Below, in pieces: positions 986-57,929 of a DNA stretch of 64,000 bases. The DNA lies in contig JAPLDA010000061.1 of assembly GCA_026391945.1 (NCBI GenBank), forward strand, positions 1 through 64,000, in the 5' to 3' direction. The position numbers were made by a program, and so were the translations under genes. Origin of the DNA: Bacteroidota bacterium (GTDB taxonomy: Bacteria; Bacteroidota; Bacteroidia; AKYH767-A; 2013-40CM-41-45). The notes beneath the pieces are model-generated. The model did no database searches, was not told where the DNA came from, and worked only from the letters and a program-made list of their open reading frames with translations. Numbering within the stretch: position 1 is the first letter of the stretch; each line of letters begins with the position of its first letter.

Positions 986-1042
986 CATGATTCCTTTGAA
1001 AAAGGAAAACAATGGCTGACTAATCACAGACTCAATTTACCG

Positions 1043-1094
1043 AATCAACTCAATCAACTTAATTTACTTGTTTATTAAGTTGATTGAGTTGATT
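1043..1094. repeat. Perfect 21-bp inverted repeat made of 9-bp units
   Basis: Arms 1043-1063 and 1074-1094 are perfectly complementary over 21 bp with a 10-base loop. Each arm is built from 9-bp units related to AGTTGATTG; the right side continues with a third unit to about 1105. It lies between the divergent fbp and serA promoters, so a terminator role would be odd for either gene. Confidence 0.85.
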
Positions 1095-1143
1095 AAGTTA
1101 ATTGGGTGTCTAACTCCTGTTTTTCATTTAAAAGTGAACGATC

Positions 1144-2509: not shown

Positions 2510-2983
2510 ATGAATTTCCTCATCCGGAAAGGAATAAAATCCGATTTGCCTTCTGTACTTTCACTTATACGGGAACTTGCTTTGTTTGAAAAAGCTCCGG
2601 GTGAAGTCACGAATACGGTGAAGGAAATGGAACGGGATGGATTCGGAGAAAATCAGGTTTTCGGTTTTTATGTTGCAGAAACAGGTGGAAAAATAATCGG
2701 GCTGGCCGTTTACTATGTGAAGTATTCAACCTGGAAAGGAAAAGGATTGTATCTTGATGACCTCATCGTTTCAGAGGCGTATCGTGGAAAAGGTGCTGGT
2801 CAAAAATTATTTGATGCATTTATGTCTGAAGCAAAATCCATCGGGGCAAAACAGGTACACTGGCAGGTTCTCGACTGGAATACTCCCGCCATTGAGTTCT
2901 ACAAAAAACTCGGATCAACTGTGGATGCTGAATGGCTGGATTGCAAAATGACGGAAGAACAGATTGTGCGTTACGGAGGATAG
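2510..2983 (+). CDS. GNAT N-acetyltransferase, SSAT-like
   Basis: Transfers an acetyl group from acetyl-CoA to an amine. The 157-residue protein is a complete GNAT fold. The acetyl-CoA pyrophosphate loop is RGKGAG (92-97), and the C-terminal motif around NTPAIEFYKKLG (124-135) is typical. Resemblance to eukaryotic spermidine/spermine acetyltransferase extends along the whole chain (LIRELALFEK, GFGEN, YLDDLIV), so a polyamine or other small-amine substrate is plausible but not shown. It sits between serA and the aspartate kinase, separated from both by repeat-filled spacers, so co-transcription is uncertain. Confidence 0.85.
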   Translation: MNFLIRKGIKSDLPSVLSLIRELALFEKAPGEVTNTVKEMERDGFGENQVFGFYVAETGGKIIGLAVYYVKYSTWKGKGLYLDDLIVSEAYRGKGAGQKLFDAFMSEAKSIGAKQVHWQVLDWNTPAIEFYKKLGSTVDAEWLDCKMTEEQIVRYGG

Positions 2984-3087
2984 AAGCAAGAGTCAAGAGG
3001 TGAGAATCAAGATATGAGATTTAAGACAACTGAATCATATTAATGGATCCCCTATCTTGATTCCTGGCTCTATTATCTAACATCTAA
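2982..3087. repeat. Two convergent heptad arrays filling the spacer before the aspartate kinase
   Basis: Eight uninterrupted 7-bp units on the plus strand (2982-3037, for example AGAGTCA and AGAATCA) begin inside the stop codon of the acetyltransferase gene. Five more units read on the minus strand (3053-3087, for example TTAGATG and CAAGATA). The two arms share GAATCAAGATA, so they can pair into an imperfect hairpin across about 15 bases of unrelated sequence. Confidence 0.8.
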
Positions 3088-3096
3088 TTTTAAAAA

Positions 3097-4365
3097 ATGA
3101 AAGTCTTCAAATTCGGCGGAGCGTCGGTTAAAGATGCAACATCGGTAAAAAACGTAGCGAATGTTCTTTCACTGTTCAAAGACGAAGAATTGGTGATCGT
3201 TGTTTCCGCTATGGGAAAAACCACCAATGCGCTGGAACAGGTGGTGAATGCTTATTTTCATAAAGATGATAAACTCGGCGAGTACATTGAAGAAGTAAAA
3301 AATTACCACCTCGAAATTATTGAAGGCCTTGGTTTCAAAAAGGATCACAGGGTGTACGAAGAACTCAGCAACATGCTGGTTGAAATCGACTGGATACTGG
3401 AAGAAGAGCCTGCCCGTGGATATGCTTTTGCTTACGACCAGATCGTATCGCAGGGAGAATTGATTTCAACAAAAATCGTGAGCGCTTATCTTAACGAAAA
3501 TAAATTTGGCAACGAATGGCTCGACATCCGTGATTGCCTGATTACGGATGATACGTACCGCGAAGGAAAAGTAAACTGGGACCTCACCGAGAAACTCGTG
3601 ATGATGAAAATTCCGGCGCTGCTGAAAAAAGAGAAACTGGTAATCACACAGGGATTCATCGGGGCAACACCGGAAAATTTCACGACCACGCTGGGACGGG
3701 AAGGCTCCGATTATACAGCCGCCATTCTTTCCTATTGTCTTGCTGCGGAAGAAATGATTGTGTGGAAAGATGTGCCCGGGGTGCTGAGCGCCGATCCGAA
3801 ATATTATGAAGATGCCGTCAAACTCCAGGAGATCAGCTACCTCGATGCCATCGAACTCACGTATTACGGAGCCACCGTGATTCATCCGAAAACCATCAAA
3901 CCTCTTGAAAATAAAAATATTCCGTTACGGGTATGTTCTTTCATATCGCCAAAAGAAAAAGGCACGAGCATCTGGCATCATCATGAAACCAAACCACTCG
4001 TCCCCTCCTTCATTTTTAAAACCAACCAGATTCTCATTTCCATTTCAGCCAAAGATTTTTCTTTCATTGCGGAAGACTGCCTGAGCAGGATCTTCGGCGT
4101 GTTTGCAAAACATAAAGTAAAAATAAACCTGATGCAGAATTCGGCTGTCAGTTTTTCCGCCTGTGTCGACAACGACACGTTTAAAATCCCCGGGCTCATT
4201 TCCGAATTACACCTTGACTTCAAAGTGCTTTACAATGAAGGATTGAAACTCATCACCGTGAGACATTATTATCCTTCTACCATCGAAATGCTCATCAAGG
4301 ACAAAACGATCCTGCTCGAACAGCGAAGCCGCCATACTGCGCAAATTGTGTTGAAAGAAGAATAG
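3097..4365 (+). CDS. Aspartate kinase (monofunctional)
   Basis: Phosphorylates aspartate at the start of lysine, threonine and methionine synthesis. The protein is 422 residues. The kinase domain carries KFGGAS (5-10) at the N terminus and the nucleotide-site motif GREGSDYTA (200-208). Two ACT domains occupy about 310-420, the usual site of amino-acid feedback. There is no homoserine dehydrogenase domain, so it is not the bifunctional ThrA type. The C-terminal ACT region is divergent, and which amino acid inhibits it cannot be told from sequence. The start ATG follows the heptad array directly. Confidence 0.93.
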   Translation: MKVFKFGGASVKDATSVKNVANVLSLFKDEELVIVVSAMGKTTNALEQVVNAYFHKDDKLGEYIEEVKNYHLEIIEGLGFKKDHRVYEELSNMLVEIDWILEEEPARGYAFAYDQIVSQGELISTKIVSAYLNENKFGNEWLDIRDCLITDDTYREGKVNWDLTEKLVMMKIPALLKKEKLVITQGFIGATPENFTTTLGREGSDYTAAILSYCLAAEEMIVWKDVPGVLSADPKYYEDAVKLQEISYLDAIELTYYGATVIHPKTIKPLENKNIPLRVCSFISPKEKGTSIWHHHETKPLVPSFIFKTNQILISISAKDFSFIAEDCLSRIFGVFAKHKVKINLMQNSAVSFSACVDNDTFKIPGLISELHLDFKVLYNEGLKLITVRHYYPSTIEMLIKDKTILLEQRSRHTAQIVLKEE

Positions 4366-12010: not shown

Positions 12011-13282
12011 TCAGTTCGCGCGGATGGCTTCCACCGGGTTCATCTGTGATGCGCGCAATGCCGGAATGAAACCACTGATGATGCCGATGCTGGCGGAGAT
12101 GATGATGCCCATCGTGATGTTCCCGGCGCTGAGAGCGAAGTTGAAATCGATGAGGCTGCTTGCCAACAGGGAAAGAATATAAACGATCAGCAGGCCGATG
12201 CTGCCGCCGATGACGCAAAGCACTACGGCTTCCACCAGGAACTGGAGCAGGATGAAATAGTTTTTCGAACCCAATGATTTCTGGATGCCGATGATGTTGG
12301 TGCGTTCCCTCACCGATACGAACATGATGTTCGCAATTCCGAAGCCGCCGACCAAAATGGAAAAACCGCCGATGATCCAACCGGCAATACCGAGCGTGTG
12401 AAACATGTCATTCAGACCGGAGGAAAGCAGGCTCGTTTCATTCAGTGCAAAATCGTCTTCCTGTCTTGGTTTCAGTTTTCTCACCGATCTCATGGCTCCT
12501 TTAACATCTTCACGCATTTCCGGCATGGCGATGTTGCTTTTAGCTTTCACCATGAAGTACGGATCGATCCTGTCGGATCTCAGGTTCACCAGGTTCCGTG
12601 CATAGTTTACGGGAATCATCATTTCATTGTCGAGGGAAATATCCACCAGGCTGCTTCCTTCTTTTTTCACCACGCCGATGATGGTGAATTTACTTCCTCT
12701 TACCGAAAGCACTTGTCCGATGGCATTGCCGTTGGGAAACAACGCTTCTTCGATGCTGGCGCCGATCAGCGCAATCGGTTTACCGCTCTGCGATTCGCTC
12801 TCCGTGAAGTAGCGCCCGTCTTTCAGTTCAAATGTTTTGATCTTGTTGTAATCCTGCGACACACAGAGGATGTCGGAATTTTCCACTGTGTTGTTTTTAT
12901 ATTTGATGAGTTGTCCGCCCAGACTGGCCACATAAGCAACGGCATCCACAGAATTCACTTTCCGTTCGAGGTCCGACATCTCCTTGTAACCAGGCAACGG
13001 GCGGTTGAGGTATTTCCACCAGGGATAATCGCCGCCTTCATCGGCAACCCACGGCCATTTCTGAATGTAGATCACATCGTTTCCCAGCGACTGAACATCG
13101 GTGCGCACTTTGTTTTCCAGCGCATCCACCACGGTGAATACGGAGATGATGGCAAAAATCCCGATCGTGATTCCGAGTAAAGAAAGTGTTGTGCGCAGTT
13201 TGTTGACGCGAAGCGCTTCGAAAGCAAATAAAAAACTTTCGCGGAAGAGTTTCAGGAATAAACCGAATCGTGCCTGCATCAT
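12011..13282 (-). CDS. ABC transporter permease, MacB/FtsX family
   Basis: The 423-residue integral membrane protein has one N-terminal transmembrane helix (about 28-50), a large periplasmic MacB_PCD domain, and three C-terminal helices of the FtsX domain (about 285-405, with GIANIMFVSVRERT, the typical coupling region). Such permeases work in mechanotransmission or export of lipoproteins, peptides or macrolides rather than classical import. No ATPase or membrane-fusion gene is adjacent, so partner and substrate are unknown. The frame extends to a TTG at 13291; the tandem ATGs at 13282 and 13279 are better starts. Confidence 0.88.
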   Translation of the reverse strand: MMQARFGLFLKLFRESFLFAFEALRVNKLRTTLSLLGITIGIFAIISVFTVVDALENKVRTDVQSLGNDVIYIQKWPWVADEGGDYPWWKYLNRPLPGYKEMSDLERKVNSVDAVAYVASLGGQLIKYKNNTVENSDILCVSQDYNKIKTFELKDGRYFTESESQSGKPIALIGASIEEALFPNGNAIGQVLSVRGSKFTIIGVVKKEGSSLVDISLDNEMMIPVNYARNLVNLRSDRIDPYFMVKAKSNIAMPEMREDVKGAMRSVRKLKPRQEDDFALNETSLLSSGLNDMFHTLGIAGWIIGGFSILVGGFGIANIMFVSVRERTNIIGIQKSLGSKNYFILLQFLVEAVVLCVIGGSIGLLIVYILSLLASSLIDFNFALSAGNITMGIIISASIGIISGFIPALRASQMNPVEAIRAN

Positions 13283-13404
13283 GGATGACAAATGTATATT
13301 TTACTTTTTATAAATCACCATGGTTAACAGATTTTAACTTCAGTCGGCGTTAACCGTCAACGATTCATCTAAAAGTTGATTGATGTTAATGGGCTGGCAA
13401 AGTG

Positions 13405-13481
13405 GATTTCTCTCGTCTATATTCTATATTCTTTACTCTTGATTCTCCTTCTTTTGACTTTTATCTTTTATCTTTTAACTT
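13405..13481 (-). repeat. Heptad repeat array, 11 uninterrupted units
   Basis: Read on the minus strand, eleven 7-bp units follow one another without a gap, including AAGATAA twice in a row, AAGTCAA, AGAATCA and AGAATAT twice in a row. This is the longest array in the window. It lies between the divergent ABC permease and purH genes, about 95 bases before the purH ATG. Confidence 0.85.
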
Positions 13482-13576: not shown

Positions 13577-15103
13577 ATGAATTCATCAAAAAAAATCGGC
13601 AGCGCGCTGATTTCTGTTTACCATAAAGATCATTTGGAGCCGGTTGTCAGGAAGCTGCACCAGTTGGGAGTAATCCTCTATACTACCGGCGGAACGCAGG
13701 AGTTTATTCAGAAGCTGGGAATTCCTGTGGTGAGTGTCGACAGTGTCACGGAATATCCTGAAATTTTTGGCGGGAGGGTGAAAACGCTTCATCCGAAAAT
13801 CTTCGGCGGCATTTTAAACAGGAGATCGAATGAACAGGATGTTGCTGAAATGAAAAAGCATCACATTCCTGCCATCGACCTGGTGGTCGTGGATCTTTAC
13901 CCTTTTGAAGAAACGGTTGCTTCCGGTGCAGATGAACAAAGCATCATTGAGAAAATTGATATCGGCGGAATTTCTCTCATCCGTGCCGCCGCCAAGAATC
14001 ACCGTGATGTGTTGATCATTCCTTCCCGTGATCACTATTCGTTTCTGCAGAACATTCTCGAAAATCAACATGGTTCTTCTTCACTGGAAGACCGGAGGCT
14101 GATGGCTGCTCACGCATTTAATATCTCCTCTCATTACGATACGGCCATCTTTCAGTATTTTAATTCTTCGGGTGAGGTAAAAGTTTTCAAGCAAAGTATT
14201 CAGCAGGCACGAAGCCTTCGTTACGGCGAGAACCCGCACCAGCAGGGAACCTTTTATGGAAACCCGGAAGACTTCTTTGAGCAACTGCATGGGAAAGAAA
14301 TTTCCTACAACAACCTGCTCGATATGGATGCGGCCGTTTCGCTGTTGTCGGATTTCAATGAAACCACTTTCGCTATCCTGAAACACAACAACGCCTGCGG
14401 TATCGCTTCACGCACCGATCTCACCGATGCCTGGAAAGATGCGCTGGCAGCGGATCCTGTGTCAGCATTCGGCGGAGTGTTGATTGCCAACCGGCCCATC
14501 AATAAAAAAACAGCGGAAGAAATCGGCAACTTGTTTTTTGAAATCCTCGTCGCTCCTGCTTTTGATGATGATGCAATGGCGGTGCTGAAGCAAAAGAAAA
14601 ACCGGATTCTTCTCAGGCAAAAAAGCAACGTGGTTTCTGCAAAACAATTCAGGAGTATTTTAAACGGAGTGGTCGAACAAGACCGCGATGTGAAAGCAGA
14701 GACCTCTTCGGAAATGAAAACGGTTACCAACTGCATTCCGTCTGAAGTCCAGCTTGCCGACCTGGAGTTCGCCAATAAAATTGTGAAGCATACGAAATCA
14801 AATGCCATTGTGCTGGTGAAAAACAAACAGCTCCTTGCCAGCGGTACAGGTCAGACTTCCCGCGTGGACGCACTTCAGCAGGCCATTCACAAAGCATTGA
14901 ATTTTCATTTCGACCTCAACGGAGCCGTGATGGCCAGCGATGCTTTTTTCCCTTTCCCTGATTGCGTGGAAATCGCTCACAGGGCGGGCATCAGGGCCAT
15001 CATTCAACCCGGAGGCTCTGTGAAAGACCAGGACTCTGTTGATTATTGCAATCAGCATGACCTGGCGATGGTGATGACCGGTACGAGGCATTTCAAGCAC
15101 TGA
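13577..15103 (+). CDS. purH: Bifunctional AICAR formyltransferase / IMP cyclohydrolase
   Basis: Catalyses the last two steps of purine synthesis, formylation of AICAR and ring closure to IMP. The protein is 508 residues. The N-terminal methylglyoxal-synthase-like cyclohydrolase domain (about 1-190) starts KIGSALISVYHKDHLEP and includes TTGGT. The C-terminal transformylase domain (about 190-508) has RYGENPHQ, the NNACGIA substrate loop and the closing SDAFFPFPD...GSVKDQDS blocks. It stands directly before the mreB operon. This placement of purH before the rod-shape genes is common in Bacteroidota, though no metabolic link is known. Confidence 0.96.
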   Translation: MNSSKKIGSALISVYHKDHLEPVVRKLHQLGVILYTTGGTQEFIQKLGIPVVSVDSVTEYPEIFGGRVKTLHPKIFGGILNRRSNEQDVAEMKKHHIPAIDLVVVDLYPFEETVASGADEQSIIEKIDIGGISLIRAAAKNHRDVLIIPSRDHYSFLQNILENQHGSSSLEDRRLMAAHAFNISSHYDTAIFQYFNSSGEVKVFKQSIQQARSLRYGENPHQQGTFYGNPEDFFEQLHGKEISYNNLLDMDAAVSLLSDFNETTFAILKHNNACGIASRTDLTDAWKDALAADPVSAFGGVLIANRPINKKTAEEIGNLFFEILVAPAFDDDAMAVLKQKKNRILLRQKSNVVSAKQFRSILNGVVEQDRDVKAETSSEMKTVTNCIPSEVQLADLEFANKIVKHTKSNAIVLVKNKQLLASGTGQTSRVDALQQAIHKALNFHFDLNGAVMASDAFFPFPDCVEIAHRAGIRAIIQPGGSVKDQDSVDYCNQHDLAMVMTGTRHFKH

Positions 15104-16309: not shown

Positions 16310-16367
16310 AATCGAATTCACAATTAGTTGTCCGTCGATCGTCCACTGAAGACCGTAGCCTGAACCC

Positions 16368-17721: not shown

Positions 17722-19588
17722 AAAGAACGTCATCCTCTTCATTTTTTTCTCAGTGGGAATTATTTTCCTGCTTCGCCTTTTTTACATACAGATCATCGAC
17801 GACAGTTACCTGCGATCAGCACATGGAAATGTGTTTCGCAACGTGACGGAGTACCCGGCGCGCGGTTTTATTTACGACCGTCATGGTGCCCTCCTGGTAT
17901 ACAATGCTCCCGTGTACGACCTGATGATCATTCCCAAACAGGCGAAGGGCATTGATACGGCTGAGTTTTCCAAACTGCTTGGAATCACTGTGGAAGGGTA
18001 CAGCGAACGTTTCAGGAAAGCACGCGCTTATTCTCCTGTAAAATCATCCATCTTCGAAAAACAGATTTCCGCTGAAACGTATGCCACCCTCCAGGAGAAG
18101 TTGTACCGTTTTCCAGGTTTCTTCGTGCAGCCGCGCACGCTCAGGAAATATCCGGAACCGATCGCCGCTCACCTGTTCGGTTACATCGGTGAAGTGGACA
18201 GCGCCACGACTGCAAAAGACCGGTATTACAAGGAAGGTGATTACATTGGTAAAAGTGGAATTGAACAATCCTATGAATCTACGCTGAGAGGCAAACGCGG
18301 AACACGCACCATGGTGGTGGATGCGTTTAACCGTGAGAAGGGAAGTTACCAGAACGGGAAATACGACACACTGGCCATTCCCGGGAAAAGCATCACACTC
18401 TCTCTTGATGCAAACCTTCAACGCTACGGAGAGGAGCTGATGAAAAACAAAGTAGGCGGAATGGTTGCCATCGATCCGCAGACCGGTGAAATACTGGCGC
18501 TGGTGAGTGCACCGTCGTACGATCCGAATTTACTGGTGGGAAGGGAACGCACGGGGAATTACGCCATGCTGTTGCAGGCGCTCACCAAGCCGCTCTTCAA
18601 CAGGGCGCTGATGGCTTATTATCCTCCCGGTTCAACCTTCAAACTCATCAACGACCTGATCGGTGAACAGGAAGGAGTTTTGTTTCCCAACACTTCATAC
18701 TACTGCGACGGCGGCTATCACATGGGAAGCCAGACGGTGAAGTGCGATGCACGGCATGGTTCCCTGAACCTGGAAGCAGCGATCGCTCACTCCTGTAATA
18801 CCTATCACTGCTATGTTTTCAGGAGCATCATTGATCAGAAGAAATACGGAAGTTCAGAAGAAGCGTACCAGTCGTGGAGAAATCATGTATTGACTTTTGG
18901 AATCGGTAAAAGACTGAACAGCGATCTTCCGCAGGAGTTGAAAGGAAATGTTCCTTCCGTGGAATACTATGACAAGTATTTTGGGAAAGGAAGATGGAAG
19001 TCATCCACCGTTGTATCCTTGTCGATCGGCCAGGGCGAGTTGGGAATTACTCCTTTGCAGATGGCGAATACGATGTGCATCATTGCGAACCGCGGATATT
19101 TTTATGTTCCTCACATCATCAGGCAAATCGGCGATTCGGCGGGGACTCAAAAGCGGTACAGCGAAAAAAATTATACGGATATTGATCCGAAATATTTTGA
19201 CATCGTTCAGAATGGTATGGAAAGCGTGGTGGAATCCGGTACGGCTGCCGCCTCCAAAATAAAAGGAATCACCGTGTGTGGAAAAACAGGAACGGCGCAA
19301 AACCCGCATGGAAAAGATCACTCGTTGTTCGTGGGTTTTGCTCCAAGGGAAAATCCGAAAATAGCCATCGGCATCATGATCGAAAACGGCGGATGGGGCG
19401 CTGAATGGGCTGCCCCGATTGCCACGCTGATGATGGAAAAATACCTGACCGATACCATCCTGCGACCAGAGATCGAAAAGAAAATGCTGGAAGGTGTCAT
19501 TCTTCCTAAAGTGTACCAGGAGAAAAAGGAATTGAAGAAAGATTCGGTGGTGGTGAAAGCAGTGGCGATGAAATTGAAAGGTGAGTAG
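17708..19588 (+). CDS. mrdA: Penicillin-binding protein 2 (elongasome transpeptidase)
   Basis: Cross-links peptidoglycan during cell elongation together with RodA. The 626-residue protein has an N-terminal transmembrane anchor (about 8-28), a PBP dimer/pedestal domain with PARGFIYDRHG (50-60), and the transpeptidase domain with all three active-site motifs: STFK (309-312, nucleophile Ser309), SCN (362-364) and KTGT (526-529). The start is GTG at 17708, inside mreD; coding continues from the first residues in the expected manner, so coupling with mreD is likely. The stop codon is followed at once by a heptad repeat array. Confidence 0.96.
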   Translation: MSSGRKNVILFIFFSVGIIFLLRLFYIQIIDDSYLRSAHGNVFRNVTEYPARGFIYDRHGALLVYNAPVYDLMIIPKQAKGIDTAEFSKLLGITVEGYSERFRKARAYSPVKSSIFEKQISAETYATLQEKLYRFPGFFVQPRTLRKYPEPIAAHLFGYIGEVDSATTAKDRYYKEGDYIGKSGIEQSYESTLRGKRGTRTMVVDAFNREKGSYQNGKYDTLAIPGKSITLSLDANLQRYGEELMKNKVGGMVAIDPQTGEILALVSAPSYDPNLLVGRERTGNYAMLLQALTKPLFNRALMAYYPPGSTFKLINDLIGEQEGVLFPNTSYYCDGGYHMGSQTVKCDARHGSLNLEAAIAHSCNTYHCYVFRSIIDQKKYGSSEEAYQSWRNHVLTFGIGKRLNSDLPQELKGNVPSVEYYDKYFGKGRWKSSTVVSLSIGQGELGITPLQMANTMCIIANRGYFYVPHIIRQIGDSAGTQKRYSEKNYTDIDPKYFDIVQNGMESVVESGTAAASKIKGITVCGKTGTAQNPHGKDHSLFVGFAPRENPKIAIGIMIENGGWGAEWAAPIATLMMEKYLTDTILRPEIEKKMLEGVILPKVYQEKKELKKDSVVVKAVAMKLKGE

Positions 19589-19664
19589 TAGGTATTGAGT
19601 ATTGAATAGTGAAGAATTGAATAATTGTATCATTCGTAAATTTGTAAAAGATTCGTAATTCGTA
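19589..19664 (+). repeat. Heptad repeat array between mrdA and rodA
   Basis: Six continuous 7-bp units (19589-19630, for example TGAGTAT and TTGAATA) begin at the base after the mrdA stop codon. Two perfect tandem copies of ATTCGTA follow at 19651-19664, with another at 19632-19638. ATTCGTA is the reverse complement of the unit TACGAAT found in tandem before pdhC. The array occupies almost the whole spacer inside an otherwise tight operon. Confidence 0.8.
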
Positions 19665-23093: not shown

Positions 23094-23142
23094 AAATTAT
23101 AAATTATAAACTACTTAACCAATTACCAACCGGTAACCAATT
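23094..23142 (-). repeat. Heptad repeat array upstream of the prolyl isomerase gene
   Basis: Seven consecutive 7-bp units fill the region immediately before the prolyl isomerase ATG. On the plus strand they include AAATTAT twice in a row, AAACTAC, TTAACCA and ATTACCA. This array is less purine-biased than the others but keeps the exact period. Confidence 0.7.
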
Positions 23143-25328: not shown

Positions 25329-25391
25329 ATACGTAACACAAACCTACATCTTTTTTACGAGGTTTGGAAATGGGGAAGGAAGTTGGAAAAA

Positions 25392-25433
25392 AAAAGCAAG
25401 AGGCAAGAATCAAGACAATAGAGTCGAGAGGAA
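25392..25433 (+). repeat. Heptad repeat array, 6 units
   Basis: Six continuous 7-bp units on the plus strand (for example AGAGGCA, AGAATCA, AGAGTCG) lie between lptC and the outer-membrane protein gene, both on the minus strand. AGAATCA is shared exactly with the arrays at 2982 and 13405. Confidence 0.8.
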
Positions 25434-28228: not shown

Positions 28229-28642
28229 AGCCCATGACTTCAGTCATGGGTTTAAATACGGGTTTAAATACGGATTTAAATACGGGTTTCAATCAATGAT
28301 TTGAAAAATAATCAAAAACCATTTCAATGGTTTTGATTTCCCATTAAAAAATGGCTGAAGCCATTGCGTGTTTGGTTTTCATTCATGATGGCGACGAATT
28401 CATTCGTTGCCTGTCTCCGATGCCTGGTTCTTATACCGATAGAGTAGCTGTTATAGTCCAATACGCCTATCGGCTTATGGACTATAACAGCTACTCTATC
28501 GGCATAATACCTCCGCCGAGGCGGATTGGATTATTTTATAATGCGTAAAGGTATTACTTCTCAAATCCATGGCTCCACCGGCGGCGGCAATCCGGAGTTT
28601 GAATTGCAGTTCAAAAATTTCTTATCACCTTTATAACATCTA
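28229..28642. repeat. Cluster of palindromes, REP-like, no gene
   Basis: 414 bases without a supported gene but with at least seven hairpins. Four share a 4-base loop TTCA or its complement TGAA: 28231-28250 (8-bp stem), 28311-28337 (11 bp with one bulge), 28350-28365 (6 bp) and 28392-28409 (7 bp). A 12-bp direct repeat related to GGGTTTAAATAC occurs about three times at 28248-28284. Then come the 25-bp perfect stem (28436-28502), TCCGCC-GA-GGCGGA (28512-28525) and an imperfect stem (28561-28602). The common loop suggests REP-type elements that can be mobilised by a tyrosine transposase elsewhere in the genome. Confidence 0.75.
28436..28502. repeat. Perfect 25-bp inverted repeat with alternative pairing
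   Basis: Arms 28436-28460 and 28478-28502 are perfectly complementary over 25 bp with a 17-base loop. The loop contains another copy of CTATCGG (28467-28473), so the outer CCGATAG (28436-28442) could pair either with the loop copy or with the distal copy (28496-28502). There is no U tract, so it is not a standard terminator. Confidence 0.85.
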
Positions 28643-32406: not shown

Positions 32407-32448
32407 GAGATTCTCAATTCCGAATCCTGAATCCTGAATTCCAAATCC
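32407..32448 (-). repeat. Heptad repeat array, 6 units, after manC
   Basis: On the minus strand six continuous 7-bp units (for example GGATTTG, GGATTCA and GGATTCG) begin right after the manC stop codon. Confidence 0.8.
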
Positions 32449-32449
32449 C

Positions 32450-33535
32450 TCACACATACTTCTCCCCTTTTTTAATCTTCACATCATTCACGAGGTTGCG
32501 GACCTGTTGTTCATCGTCCTTCGGACAAATCAAAAGTACATTGTCTGATTCAACGACGATGTAATTATCAAGTCCGAGGATGACGGCCAGTTTCCCGCCG
32601 GGAATGTTGATGATGCAGTTGCTTGTTTTGTCGAGCATCACATGCTGACCGATGATGGCATTCTCATGCTGGTCGTGCGAAAGGTTTTCATAGAGCGACT
32701 TCCAGGTTCCCAAATCACTCCATCCGAATTCGGCGCTCATCACGTACACATTTTTTGCTTTTTCCATCACGCCGTAGTCAATGGAAATGTTCGTGCAATG
32801 TGTATACGCTTTCCTCACATGTTCCATTTCTTCAGGAGTGTTGTAATAGCCTTTCCCTTCTTTAAAAAGTGAAAACATTTCAGGAAGAAAATCTTCGAGT
32901 GATTTCATGATGGTCTTCAGGTTCCAGACAAAGATTCCGGAGTTCCACAAAAAATCACCACTCTTCAGAAAAAATTTTGCCATCTCCAGGTTCGGCTTCT
33001 CGGTAAACGTTTTCACCTTGCTGATCTTGAATTTTTCATCAACACCATCGCTCTTGAACTGGATGTAACCATAACCGGTATCCGGCCTGCTCGGGTTGAT
33101 TCCAAGGGTGAGCAGGGAATTGTTTTTTGCCGTGAAGTCAAGCGCTTTGGTAATCGCCTCATGAAATCCCTGCTCGTCTTTGATCACATGATCCGACGGA
33201 GCCACCACGATGTTGGCGTCCGGGTTCATCTCTGCGATTTTAAAGGAAGCATACGCCACGCAGGGTGCCGTATTCCTTCGCAACGGTTCGGCCAGCACCT
33301 GCGATTTGGAAAGTTCGGGGATGATCCTGTACACATGTTCGAGGTACGCTTCATTGGTGACAATGAAAATATTTTCGAGCGGACAGATTTTTTCAAACCG
33401 TTCAAACGTTTGCCTGATCAGGGTTTTTCCTGTTCCGAGAATGTCGATGAATTGTTTGGGGTAATTGTTCCGGCTCATGGGCCAGAATCGGCTTCCGATG
33501 CCTCCGGCCATGATGACACAGTAATTGTTCTTCAT
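32450..33535 (-). CDS. manC: Mannose-1-phosphate guanylyltransferase
   Basis: Makes GDP-mannose from mannose 1-phosphate and GTP, the donor for GDP-fucose and surface glycans. The 361-residue protein has the nucleotidyltransferase signature GGIGSRFWP (about 12-20) followed by the conserved PKQF (about 26-29), APSDHVI (about 112-118) and the FTEKPNLEMA and WNSGIFVW blocks. There is no fused phosphomannose isomerase cupin domain, so it is the short type. It is a single gene here, followed by the heptad array and preceded by the aminotransferase gene on the same strand. Confidence 0.94.
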   Translation of the reverse strand: MKNNYCVIMAGGIGSRFWPMSRNNYPKQFIDILGTGKTLIRQTFERFEKICPLENIFIVTNEAYLEHVYRIIPELSKSQVLAEPLRRNTAPCVAYASFKIAEMNPDANIVVAPSDHVIKDEQGFHEAITKALDFTAKNNSLLTLGINPSRPDTGYGYIQFKSDGVDEKFKISKVKTFTEKPNLEMAKFFLKSGDFLWNSGIFVWNLKTIMKSLEDFLPEMFSLFKEGKGYYNTPEEMEHVRKAYTHCTNISIDYGVMEKAKNVYVMSAEFGWSDLGTWKSLYENLSHDQHENAIIGQHVMLDKTSNCIINIPGGKLAVILGLDNYIVVESDNVLLICPKDDEQQVRNLVNDVKIKKGEKYV

Positions 33536-56583: not shown

Positions 56584-56591
56584 TAGTATAC

Positions 56592-56626
56592 TACGAATTA
56601 CGAATTGAGATTTGAGAAATTAGATA
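56592..56626 (+). repeat. Heptad repeat array, 5 units, between pdhA and pdhC
   Basis: Five continuous 7-bp units: TACGAAT twice, then TGAGATT, TGAGAAA and TTAGATA. It starts nine bases after the pdhA stop and ends eight bases before the pdhC ATG, so it makes up almost the whole spacer. Confidence 0.8.
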
Positions 56627-56633
56627 AAAGAAA

Positions 56634-57929
56634 ATGGCCGAGATAGTCAGAATGCCTAAGATGAGTGATACCATGACGGAAGGTGTGGTATCGAAGTGGC
56701 ACAAAAAAATCGGGGACAAAATCAAGCCCGGCGATCTCGTCGCGGAAATTGAAACCGACAAAGCCACAATGGAATTTGAATCTTACCAGGAAGGTACTCT
56801 TCTGTACATCGGTGTGGAAGAAGGAAAAGGCGCGCCGGTAGATGGTATCCTTGCCATTCTTGGAAATGCAGGAGAGGATTATAAGTCATTGCTTGAAACC
56901 GAACTGAAAAAATCACCGGCGAAAAATGAAGAAGCAACGAAAGCAACTACTGCTCCTTCTTCCAAACCTTCTCCTGCCCTTACTCCTAAACCAGCTGTAA
57001 TGGCTGCTCCGGTTGCACGCCCGGTAATCATCACCTCTGATTCAAGAACAAAAGCTTCACCACTTGCCAAACGACTCGCTTCAGAAAAAGGAATCGACCT
57101 TGCACAAATCATGGGCAGCGGTGAACATGGCAGAATTGTAAAGCGCGACATCGACTGGTTCAAACCGGGAAATGTAATTGCGGGAACTCCGGCAGATGGA
57201 ATGCTTGCTGATTTTCTTCCTGCTCCTGTAACGGAAGAAGGCTTTGATGAAATTCCTGTTTCGCAGATGCGGAAGACCATCGCCAAACGTCTTGCAGAAA
57301 GTAAATTCACCGCCCCGCATTTTTACCTCACCATTGAAATCGACATGGATAACGCCGTTGCTGCCCGCGAAAGCATCAATGCGGTGACCGGTTTTAAAGT
57401 TTCTTACAACGACTTCGTGATTAAAGCCGCTGCTGTGGCTTTGCACCAGCACCCGAAAGTAAATTCTTCCTGGCTTGGCGATAAAATCAGGATGAATCAT
57501 CATGTGCATATTGGCGTGGCCGTTGCTGTGGAAGAAGGATTGCTGGTTCCGGTAGTTCGTTTTGCAGATTCGAAAACGCTGAGACAAATCAATGCCGAAG
57601 TAAAAACCTTTTCGCAAAAAGCAAAAGATAAAAAACTTCAGCCGGCCGACTGGGAAGGAAATACATTCACGATTTCAAACCTCGGCATGTTTGGCATTGA
57701 AGAATTCACAGCCATCATCAATCCTCCGGATGCGTGCATCCTTGCCGTCGGCGGTATCATGCAAAAACCCGTTGTAAAAAACGGAGCCATCGTTCCGGGC
57801 AACGTGATGAAGGTGACACTGAGCTGCGATCATCGCGTAGTGGATGGTGTAACCGGATCCGACTTTTTAAAAACGCTGAAAGGTTTGATTGAAAACCCGA
57901 TGCTATGGCTGAACCAATCATCCATTTGA
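56634..57929 (+). CDS. pdhC: Pyruvate dehydrogenase E2, dihydrolipoamide acetyltransferase
   Basis: Forms the core of the pyruvate dehydrogenase complex and transfers acetyl to CoA. The 431-residue protein has one lipoyl domain (1-77, lipoylated Lys43 in ETDKA), an Ala/Pro-rich linker (about 90-130), a peripheral-subunit binding domain (about 140-177, with SPLAKRLASEKG and GSGEHGRIVKRDI) and the catalytic domain (about 205-431) with DHRVVDG (399-405; His400 and Asp404). It follows pdhA by a 50-base spacer filled with heptad repeats. E3 is not in the window. Confidence 0.94.
   Translation: MAEIVRMPKMSDTMTEGVVSKWHKKIGDKIKPGDLVAEIETDKATMEFESYQEGTLLYIGVEEGKGAPVDGILAILGNAGEDYKSLLETELKKSPAKNEEATKATTAPSSKPSPALTPKPAVMAAPVARPVIITSDSRTKASPLAKRLASEKGIDLAQIMGSGEHGRIVKRDIDWFKPGNVIAGTPADGMLADFLPAPVTEEGFDEIPVSQMRKTIAKRLAESKFTAPHFYLTIEIDMDNAVAARESINAVTGFKVSYNDFVIKAAAVALHQHPKVNSSWLGDKIRMNHHVHIGVAVAVEEGLLVPVVRFADSKTLRQINAEVKTFSQKAKDKKLQPADWEGNTFTISNLGMFGIEEFTAIINPPDACILAVGGIMQKPVVKNGAIVPGNVMKVTLSCDHRVVDGVTGSDFLKTLKGLIENPMLWLNQSSI

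Follow-up and report, generated by a model that had tools for sequence, protein, structure and literature searches.

What keeps the step of a repeat constant while its letters drift is the question raised by the spacer between an FtsX/MacB-type permease gene (12011–13291, minus strand) and the divergent purH gene (13577–15103, plus strand), which holds, at 13405–13481 on the minus strand, a single array of 7-bp units (AAGTTAA, AAGATAA, AAGTCAA, AGAATCA and AGAGTAA; lag-7 identity 0.67 vs 0.41 in shuffled sequence, p=0.001). The preliminary description of the window, by which we mean the whole stretch of 64,000 nucleotides analysed, listed 7-bp arrays in many spacers, and the analyses presented here confirm that they are real: all nine cited segments exceed their dinucleotide shuffles at lag 7 (identity 0.46–1.00 vs 0.26–0.41, p 0.001 to 0.02), 7 is the best lag in 9/9, and free choice of segment across the whole spacer still gives p 0.001–0.016 in 8/8 spacers holding them. 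Autocorrelation, proposed there as a check, likewise revealed a lag-7 excess over shuffles, both in the 44 spacers of the window (z=4.5 at lag 7 and z=3.8 at lag 14) and in 248 spacers from the window plus 20 stretches sampled from the same genome (z 11.0, 7.7 and 8.3 at lags 7, 14 and 21), while the coding DNA of the window peaks at multiples of 3 only and has no lag-7 peak. The period had been called strict, and this stands only in part. Period 7 is the dominant step in the same-genome spacers (27 arrays vs 1.0 in shuffles), but periods 8 (16 vs 0.8) and 9 (8 vs 0.8) are enriched as well, with array density outside the window over-estimated because the 20 extra stretches came from contigs selected by AAGTCAA matches; moreover, the segment 19610–19648 fits 8 as well as 7. 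A further spacer with a lag-7 excess (16310–16367; identity 0.47, z=3.9) was absent from the original list, and a long spacer carries at 28248–28293 a 12-bp tandem repeat, GGGTTTAAATAC, in 3.8 copies, which is different in kind from the heptad arrays. Rfam returned only a tRNA over the window, with no known structured RNA at the arrays.

Within the genome, some arrays are built of near-identical units that succeed one another in runs (AATTACG x6, AATTAAG x6 and AATTGAG x3 in one; GTCAAGA x5 followed by GTCAGAA x11 in another), and local duplication therefore contributes to them. Such succession is typical of ordinary replication slippage, in which 7 bp would simply be a favoured slip length of the polymerase (as Mrazek et al. 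2007 proposed, according to PMC4679880) and any association with a particular gene would be incidental; heptanucleotide repeats are, in addition, the commonest repeat class in many genomes (PMC4679880). The window arrays are mostly degenerate and so do not correspond to perfect or near-perfect heptanucleotide SSRs (LSSRs), of which a few near-perfect examples occur elsewhere in the genome.

A candidate owner of the arrays is found in the pdhA–pdhC spacer. In the window this spacer (56584–56633) is almost wholly one array, which fills it (56592–56634, plus strand; units TACGAAT, TGAGATT and TTAGATA). The pdhA–pdhC or pdhC spacers of about 30 relatives are mostly without arrays, and in two of these genomes (G022, locus L039, and G017, locus L052) the spacer is occupied by two inverted heptad arrays with the gene of a four-helix-bundle protein between them, in the order pdhA stop codon, TTAAGGA units, gene, TTAATCC units, pdhC start codon. 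This protein is an S23p (PF05635/TIGR02436), the type encoded by intervening sequences (IVS) of 23S rRNA, and its nearest solved structure by sequence is XCC0516 (2gsc) from Xanthomonas campestris, which the title of Lin et al. describes as five four-helix bundles. The arms of the L039 element are predicted to fold at the RNA level as a long terminal stem (z=-6.3), which would be compatible with, though no proof of, excision of the RNA by RNase III. In the comparison of orthologous spacers, a second check initially proposed, full S23p elements occupy the pdhA–pdhC spacer in two relatives, while no arrays were found in the purH upstream spacers at ten loci from other genomes, so that the array upstream of purH is not conserved among these ten relatives.

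Periodic flanks are common at S23p genes. We examined 162 of them (ORF-based gene calls) from Bacteroidota and from plasmids of Cyanobacteria, Bacillota, Spirochaetota and Chloroflexota; significant periodic flanking arrays are present at 141 (about 8 expected by chance), with a period of 7 in 101, 8 in 29, 6 in 6, 9 in 3 and other values in 2, and were not found at 21. In a first set of 70 elements of the phylum, lag-7 identity was 0.352 in the upstream flank (0.276 for control genes at the same loci) and 0.405 in the first 70 bp downstream (0.294 for control genes), an excess far above controls that speaks against slippage with an incidental S23p link. Array-flanked S23p genes occur on plasmids of five phyla, with arrays mostly at both ends in Nostoc, Anabaena, Aulosira, Dolichospermum, Planktothrix, Gloeocapsa, Euhalothece, Pseudanabaena, Treponema, Monoglobus, Chlorohelix and Bernardetia. 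The genome to which the window belongs has five S23p genes, whose spacer arrays step by 7 bp (L069 and L072, the latter between nuoD and nuoH) or 8 bp (L070, L071 and L073). One small subfamily (L257, L258, L261 and L262) has ends without a tandem array, and its flanks resemble ordinary short inverted repeats (e.g. gtcattggtgg / ccgccattaatgac).

Within an element, the arms are inverted copies of each other: the left arm matches the reverse complement of the right arm at 0.677 within one element compared with 0.467 between elements (p=2e-29), and a same-strand comparison of the two arms gives 0.479; matching inverted arms again count against slippage. Placement is equally regular, the left array starting a median of 1 bp past the upstream stop codon (80% within 10 bp), the right array ending a median of 7 bp before the next start codon, and the arms having a median length of 4.6 units. 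All S23p elements examined lie between protein genes and none in 23S rRNA, the classical IVS position; no transposase was found within them. The S23p gene points the same way as its two neighbours in 110 of 144 cases and runs antisense to the two in 16. Read in left-arm sense, period-7 units follow the profile A-A-[G/T]-T-[A/C]-G-N (2.29 bits vs 1.74±0.06 when columns are permuted; a random-strand null was set aside as mis-specified for base composition).

We show further that the step of the arrays, and hardly their sequence, follows the S23p lineage. Mapped onto a tree built from 100 S23p proteins (thinned at 60% identity), the observed periods require 12 changes vs 25.2 when shuffled (0/200 as low), and on an earlier version 4 vs 11.3; the number of switches is approximate because the tree rests on few columns and many of its forks are weak, and the clustering of period upon it is clear. 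The period is the same in 84% of protein pairs of 50–60% identity and in 55% of random pairs, with a unit similarity of 0.525 vs 0.470, and close proteins at different sites can have the same step with quite different units (L198/L199, 77% identical; L085/L240, 68%; L096/L264, 68%). The original suggestion that phase is constrained while sequence drifts is thus upheld, both by these pairs, whose units are near random, and by the arms of one element, which remain complementary although their units change. Its companion claim, that slippage is insufficient, holds for the inverted pairing, the association with S23p and the lineage-bound period, whereas runs of near-identical units are explicable by slippage. 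Steps of 6, 8 and 9 bp according to S23p lineage and the lack of period-7 arrays in nine S23p-null genomes (see below) also disagree with a favoured slip length, and we consider it very unlikely that slippage accounts for the arrays.

Orthologous spacers capture the elements in several states. Within one family, the fadB–fadA spacer has a full S23p element in G106, G141, G130, G122 and G149 (401–486 bp); G133 has a shortened copy there (207 bp), G067 an inverted heptad pair with no gene (65 bp) and G095, G079, G083 and G102 single arrays (33–36 bp), and the spacer is empty in G110, G118 and G087 (1–18 bp); the pcaF spacer has an S23p element in eight genomes, a gene-less inverted pair in G122 and none in G083 and G110. 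At these two spacers the arms vary among species and match within species, the best match falling on the diagonal in 10/12. The evidence for mobility consists of presence and absence at orthologous spacers, which are too diverged to define a target-site duplication, and the site states are readable either as a gene lost or as a gene yet to arrive. Separately, different genera carry S23p elements in the same spacers, among them nuoC–nuoD and those preceding the dihydrolipoamide dehydrogenase gene and pcaF (shared-spacer groups L112/L128, L116/L122, L105/L108/L123 and L107/L109/L111/L118), sometimes of clearly different S23p lineages, and some sites therefore seem to be reused.

It could be argued that the arrays come first, arising independently in spacers and serving as docking sites in or between which S23p genes land, with single arrays as unoccupied sites; single arrays do outnumber S23p genes in this genome, and a few arrays occur in some genomes lacking S23p. 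We think this order of events unlikely, since insertion into one array would give direct arms, whereas the arms are inverted, the period tracks the S23p lineage across sites and genomes, and nine S23p-null genomes outside the order contain no period-7 array in 360 kb. Ten S23p-rich genomes have six period-7 arrays in 400 kb outside S23p flanks, and within the order three S23p-null genomes have four arrays (two each in G020 and G014, which have no S23p) and seven S23p-positive genomes ten. This genome-level link between arrays and S23p count has the expected direction but is weak, and we therefore do not treat it as main evidence.

No S23p (PF05635/TIGR02436) gene is present in the 64-kb window, and its arrays are best explained as arms of S23p elements that lack the gene rather than as full elements, two being inverted pairs and most others single arms. 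The first pair (2982–3087, plus strand; GAATCAAGATA ... TATCTTGATTC) fills the spacer between a GNAT acetyltransferase gene and an aspartate-kinase-like gene at 3097. It had been counted as eight plus five units, and the counts are right (eight left, five right), but they form an inverted pair rather than one array (inverted-arm score 14 vs a shuffled mean of 8.5, p=0.007); its RNA fold of -23.4 kcal/mol (z -1.45) is only slightly better than shuffles. The second pair (1034–1104, plus strand) consists of period-9 arrays (AATCAACTC ... GTTGATTGA; inverted score 24 vs a shuffled maximum of 15, p=0.003), and its unit is that of a period-9 S23p element, L241, in a relative.

Single left-arm-like arrays on the plus strand comprise, besides the one between pdhA and pdhC, that at 2425–2476 (AAGTCAA/AAGTTAA; score 21, p=0.001), which begins within the stop codon of a serA-like gene ending at 2426, 2 bp before the end of the ORF, and that at 19585–19664, which starts at a stop codon, changes from period 7 to 8 and is followed before the next ORF by ATTCGTA units (the tandem reported at 19651–19664 is present, but in two copies only). 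The array at 32407–32449 (score 17, p=0.001) reads ATCCTGA/ATTCCGA on the plus strand, has left-arm sense on the minus strand and abuts the end of the minus-strand gene 32450–33535. A period-7 array at 23094–23142 (AAATTAT ..., no strand assigned; p=0.001) lies between two minus-strand genes and adjoins the start of the downstream one, the position of a right arm; another, at 25391–25433 (plus strand, AAGAATC/AAGAGGC; p=0.004), also has minus-strand genes on either side. For the array upstream of purH, an inverted partner was not found within 1.5 kb.

Arrays placed near stop and start codons, most of them purine-rich in the sense strand as in PMC4679880, might instead be taken for host regulatory sites, i.e. 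translation leaders, terminators or DNA-bending or protein-binding sites, and a role of this type was proposed by MacGregor for TAACTGA repeats (PMC4679880); an arm remaining ahead of a gene could influence how that gene is translated. Yet their presence at one spacer is erratic among sister species, some arrays lie within operons (pdhA–pdhC), and the 21-bp helical register suggested in the preliminary description is not supported, as related elements step by 6, 8 or 9 bp according to S23p lineage. A primary regulatory function appears to us extremely improbable. As terminators, single arrays are poor candidates because an inverted partner is rare, and the window's paired array at 2982–3087 folds only slightly better than shuffles; the terminator idea was rejected on these grounds.

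The single arrays of this genome are mostly placed as arms of S23p elements would be. Among 20 period-7 arrays in co-directional spacers, 15 have left-arm sense, 12 of which are nearer the upstream stop codon, and five have right-arm sense, four of these being nearer the downstream start codon; 16/20 are thus at the position expected for their arm. The gene-less arrays are closer to the genome's own S23p arms than to foreign ones (p=0.005 for period 8, p=0.058 for period 7), the array at L026 (12528–12561) is nearly identical to an arm of the S23p element L072, and the match to the S23p-arm unit profile is weak (p=0.07). Against the five S23p genes of the genome stand 50 gene-less arrays of period 7–9 in a 14% sample, mostly unpaired, with inverted pairs a minority. 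A gene-less period-8 pair at L020 (9690–9724 and 9756–9794; GTGTTTAT... / ...ACTTAAACACTC) appears to be inverted and is similar to the arms of L070, an S23p element.

We conclude that the heptad arrays are probably terminal arms, mostly gene-less now, of elements with the structure [array]–S23p gene–[inverted array] lying between a stop and a start codon, a reading that accommodates the observed S23p–array association, inverted pairing, stop-to-start placement, presence/absence states and lineage-bound period. Because the step is bound to the S23p lineage while the letters drift, S23p most likely contacts the array, or its RNA or DNA hairpin, once per repeat, and the geometry of the protein would then fix the step. 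Arms may be kept alike through pairing or templated correction (template switching or selection for pairing) and may grow or shrink by whole units, which would allow renewal without conservation of letters. Loss of the S23p gene and one arm would leave single arrays of the kind seen in the window, and placement between stop and start would fit an element tolerated only where no reading frame is broken. More tentatively, as a possibility to which we give somewhat less than even weight, S23p elements may be widespread selfish elements without a recognizable transposase, in which a ring-shaped protein sets the step (6, 7, 8 or 9 bp) of the arrays and either this protein or the hairpin formed by the arrays regenerates them at each new site; many heptamer repeats of bacteria, those of Nostoc, Beggiatoaceae and Xanthomonas among them, would then be their gene-bearing or gene-less ends.

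Among known systems, the 23S rRNA IVS share with these elements an S23p (PF05635) gene inside terminal inverted repeats, and in Coxiella burnetii tandem heptamers (GACAGAT), variable in number among strains, occur just before the S23p ORF of the IVS (PMC4990558). The present elements differ in lying between protein genes, in having short-step tandem arrays at both ends and in the gene-less copies of the window. S23p (23S_rRNA_IVP) genes have also been reported in cas loci (PMC3936711). An S23p element lies between cas2 and cas1, antisense to both, on plasmids of Nostoc TCL26-01 (L196) and Anabaena cylindrica (L202), and in Pseudanabaena (L203) one lies beside cas1, which suggests that the reported genes may have inserted into these loci and have no part in immunity; other plasmid elements (L191, L204, L205 and L206) are inside or adjoin restriction-modification, DISARM or helicase/methylase clusters. 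Avd, an accessory protein of diversity-generating retroelements, is homologous to the PF05635 fold (PMC10053308). Neither a reverse transcriptase nor a variable repeat was found in the S23p loci examined. Gene-less inverted repeats beside a few gene-bearing copies are characteristic of REP/RAYT systems and MITEs, and in this respect the S23p elements may be alike; S23p is, however, not a known transposase, and the ends conserve step length rather than sequence. TRAP, a ring protein acting on evenly spaced short RNA motifs, offers a working analogy for a step set by a protein, a ring of subunits reading evenly spaced motifs; it has no homology to S23p, and the putative binding by S23p is drawn by analogy only.

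Heptamer repeats, IVS elements, S23p genes in cas loci (PMC3936711) and the kinship of S23p and Avd (PMC10053308) are already published. In the literature searched (mainly open-access, without preprints) we came across no description of inverted short-step arrays on either side of S23p genes, nor of a step that follows S23p, and the view that heptad spacers have no assigned function agrees with this literature. Closest in kind are the repeats of TAACTGA in Beggiatoaceae, Cyanobacteria and Bacteroidetes (PMC4679880), of GGGAATC in Xanthomonas and of GGGGA(C/T)T in Nostoc (PMC4692102), which are, as here, intergenic 7-bp arrays adjoining start or stop codons; S23p terms are absent from both papers. 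The published repeats are near-perfect copies of one unit, whereas the units here are many and degenerate. In two Xanthomonas genomes 70–75 inverted heptamer pairs are known (PMC4692102), and the S23p structure 2gsc (XCC0516) likewise comes from Xanthomonas campestris. For decades, heptamer repeats have been described from Cyanobacteria, Xanthomonas, Beggiatoaceae and Bacteroidota with no owner assigned to them, and annotation lists S23p ('four helix bundle protein') genes commonly but gives them no function; linked, with the step following protein ancestry, both become one testable system. Since step length follows the S23p family line, this long-unexplained class of repeats gains a likely owner and a testable cause.
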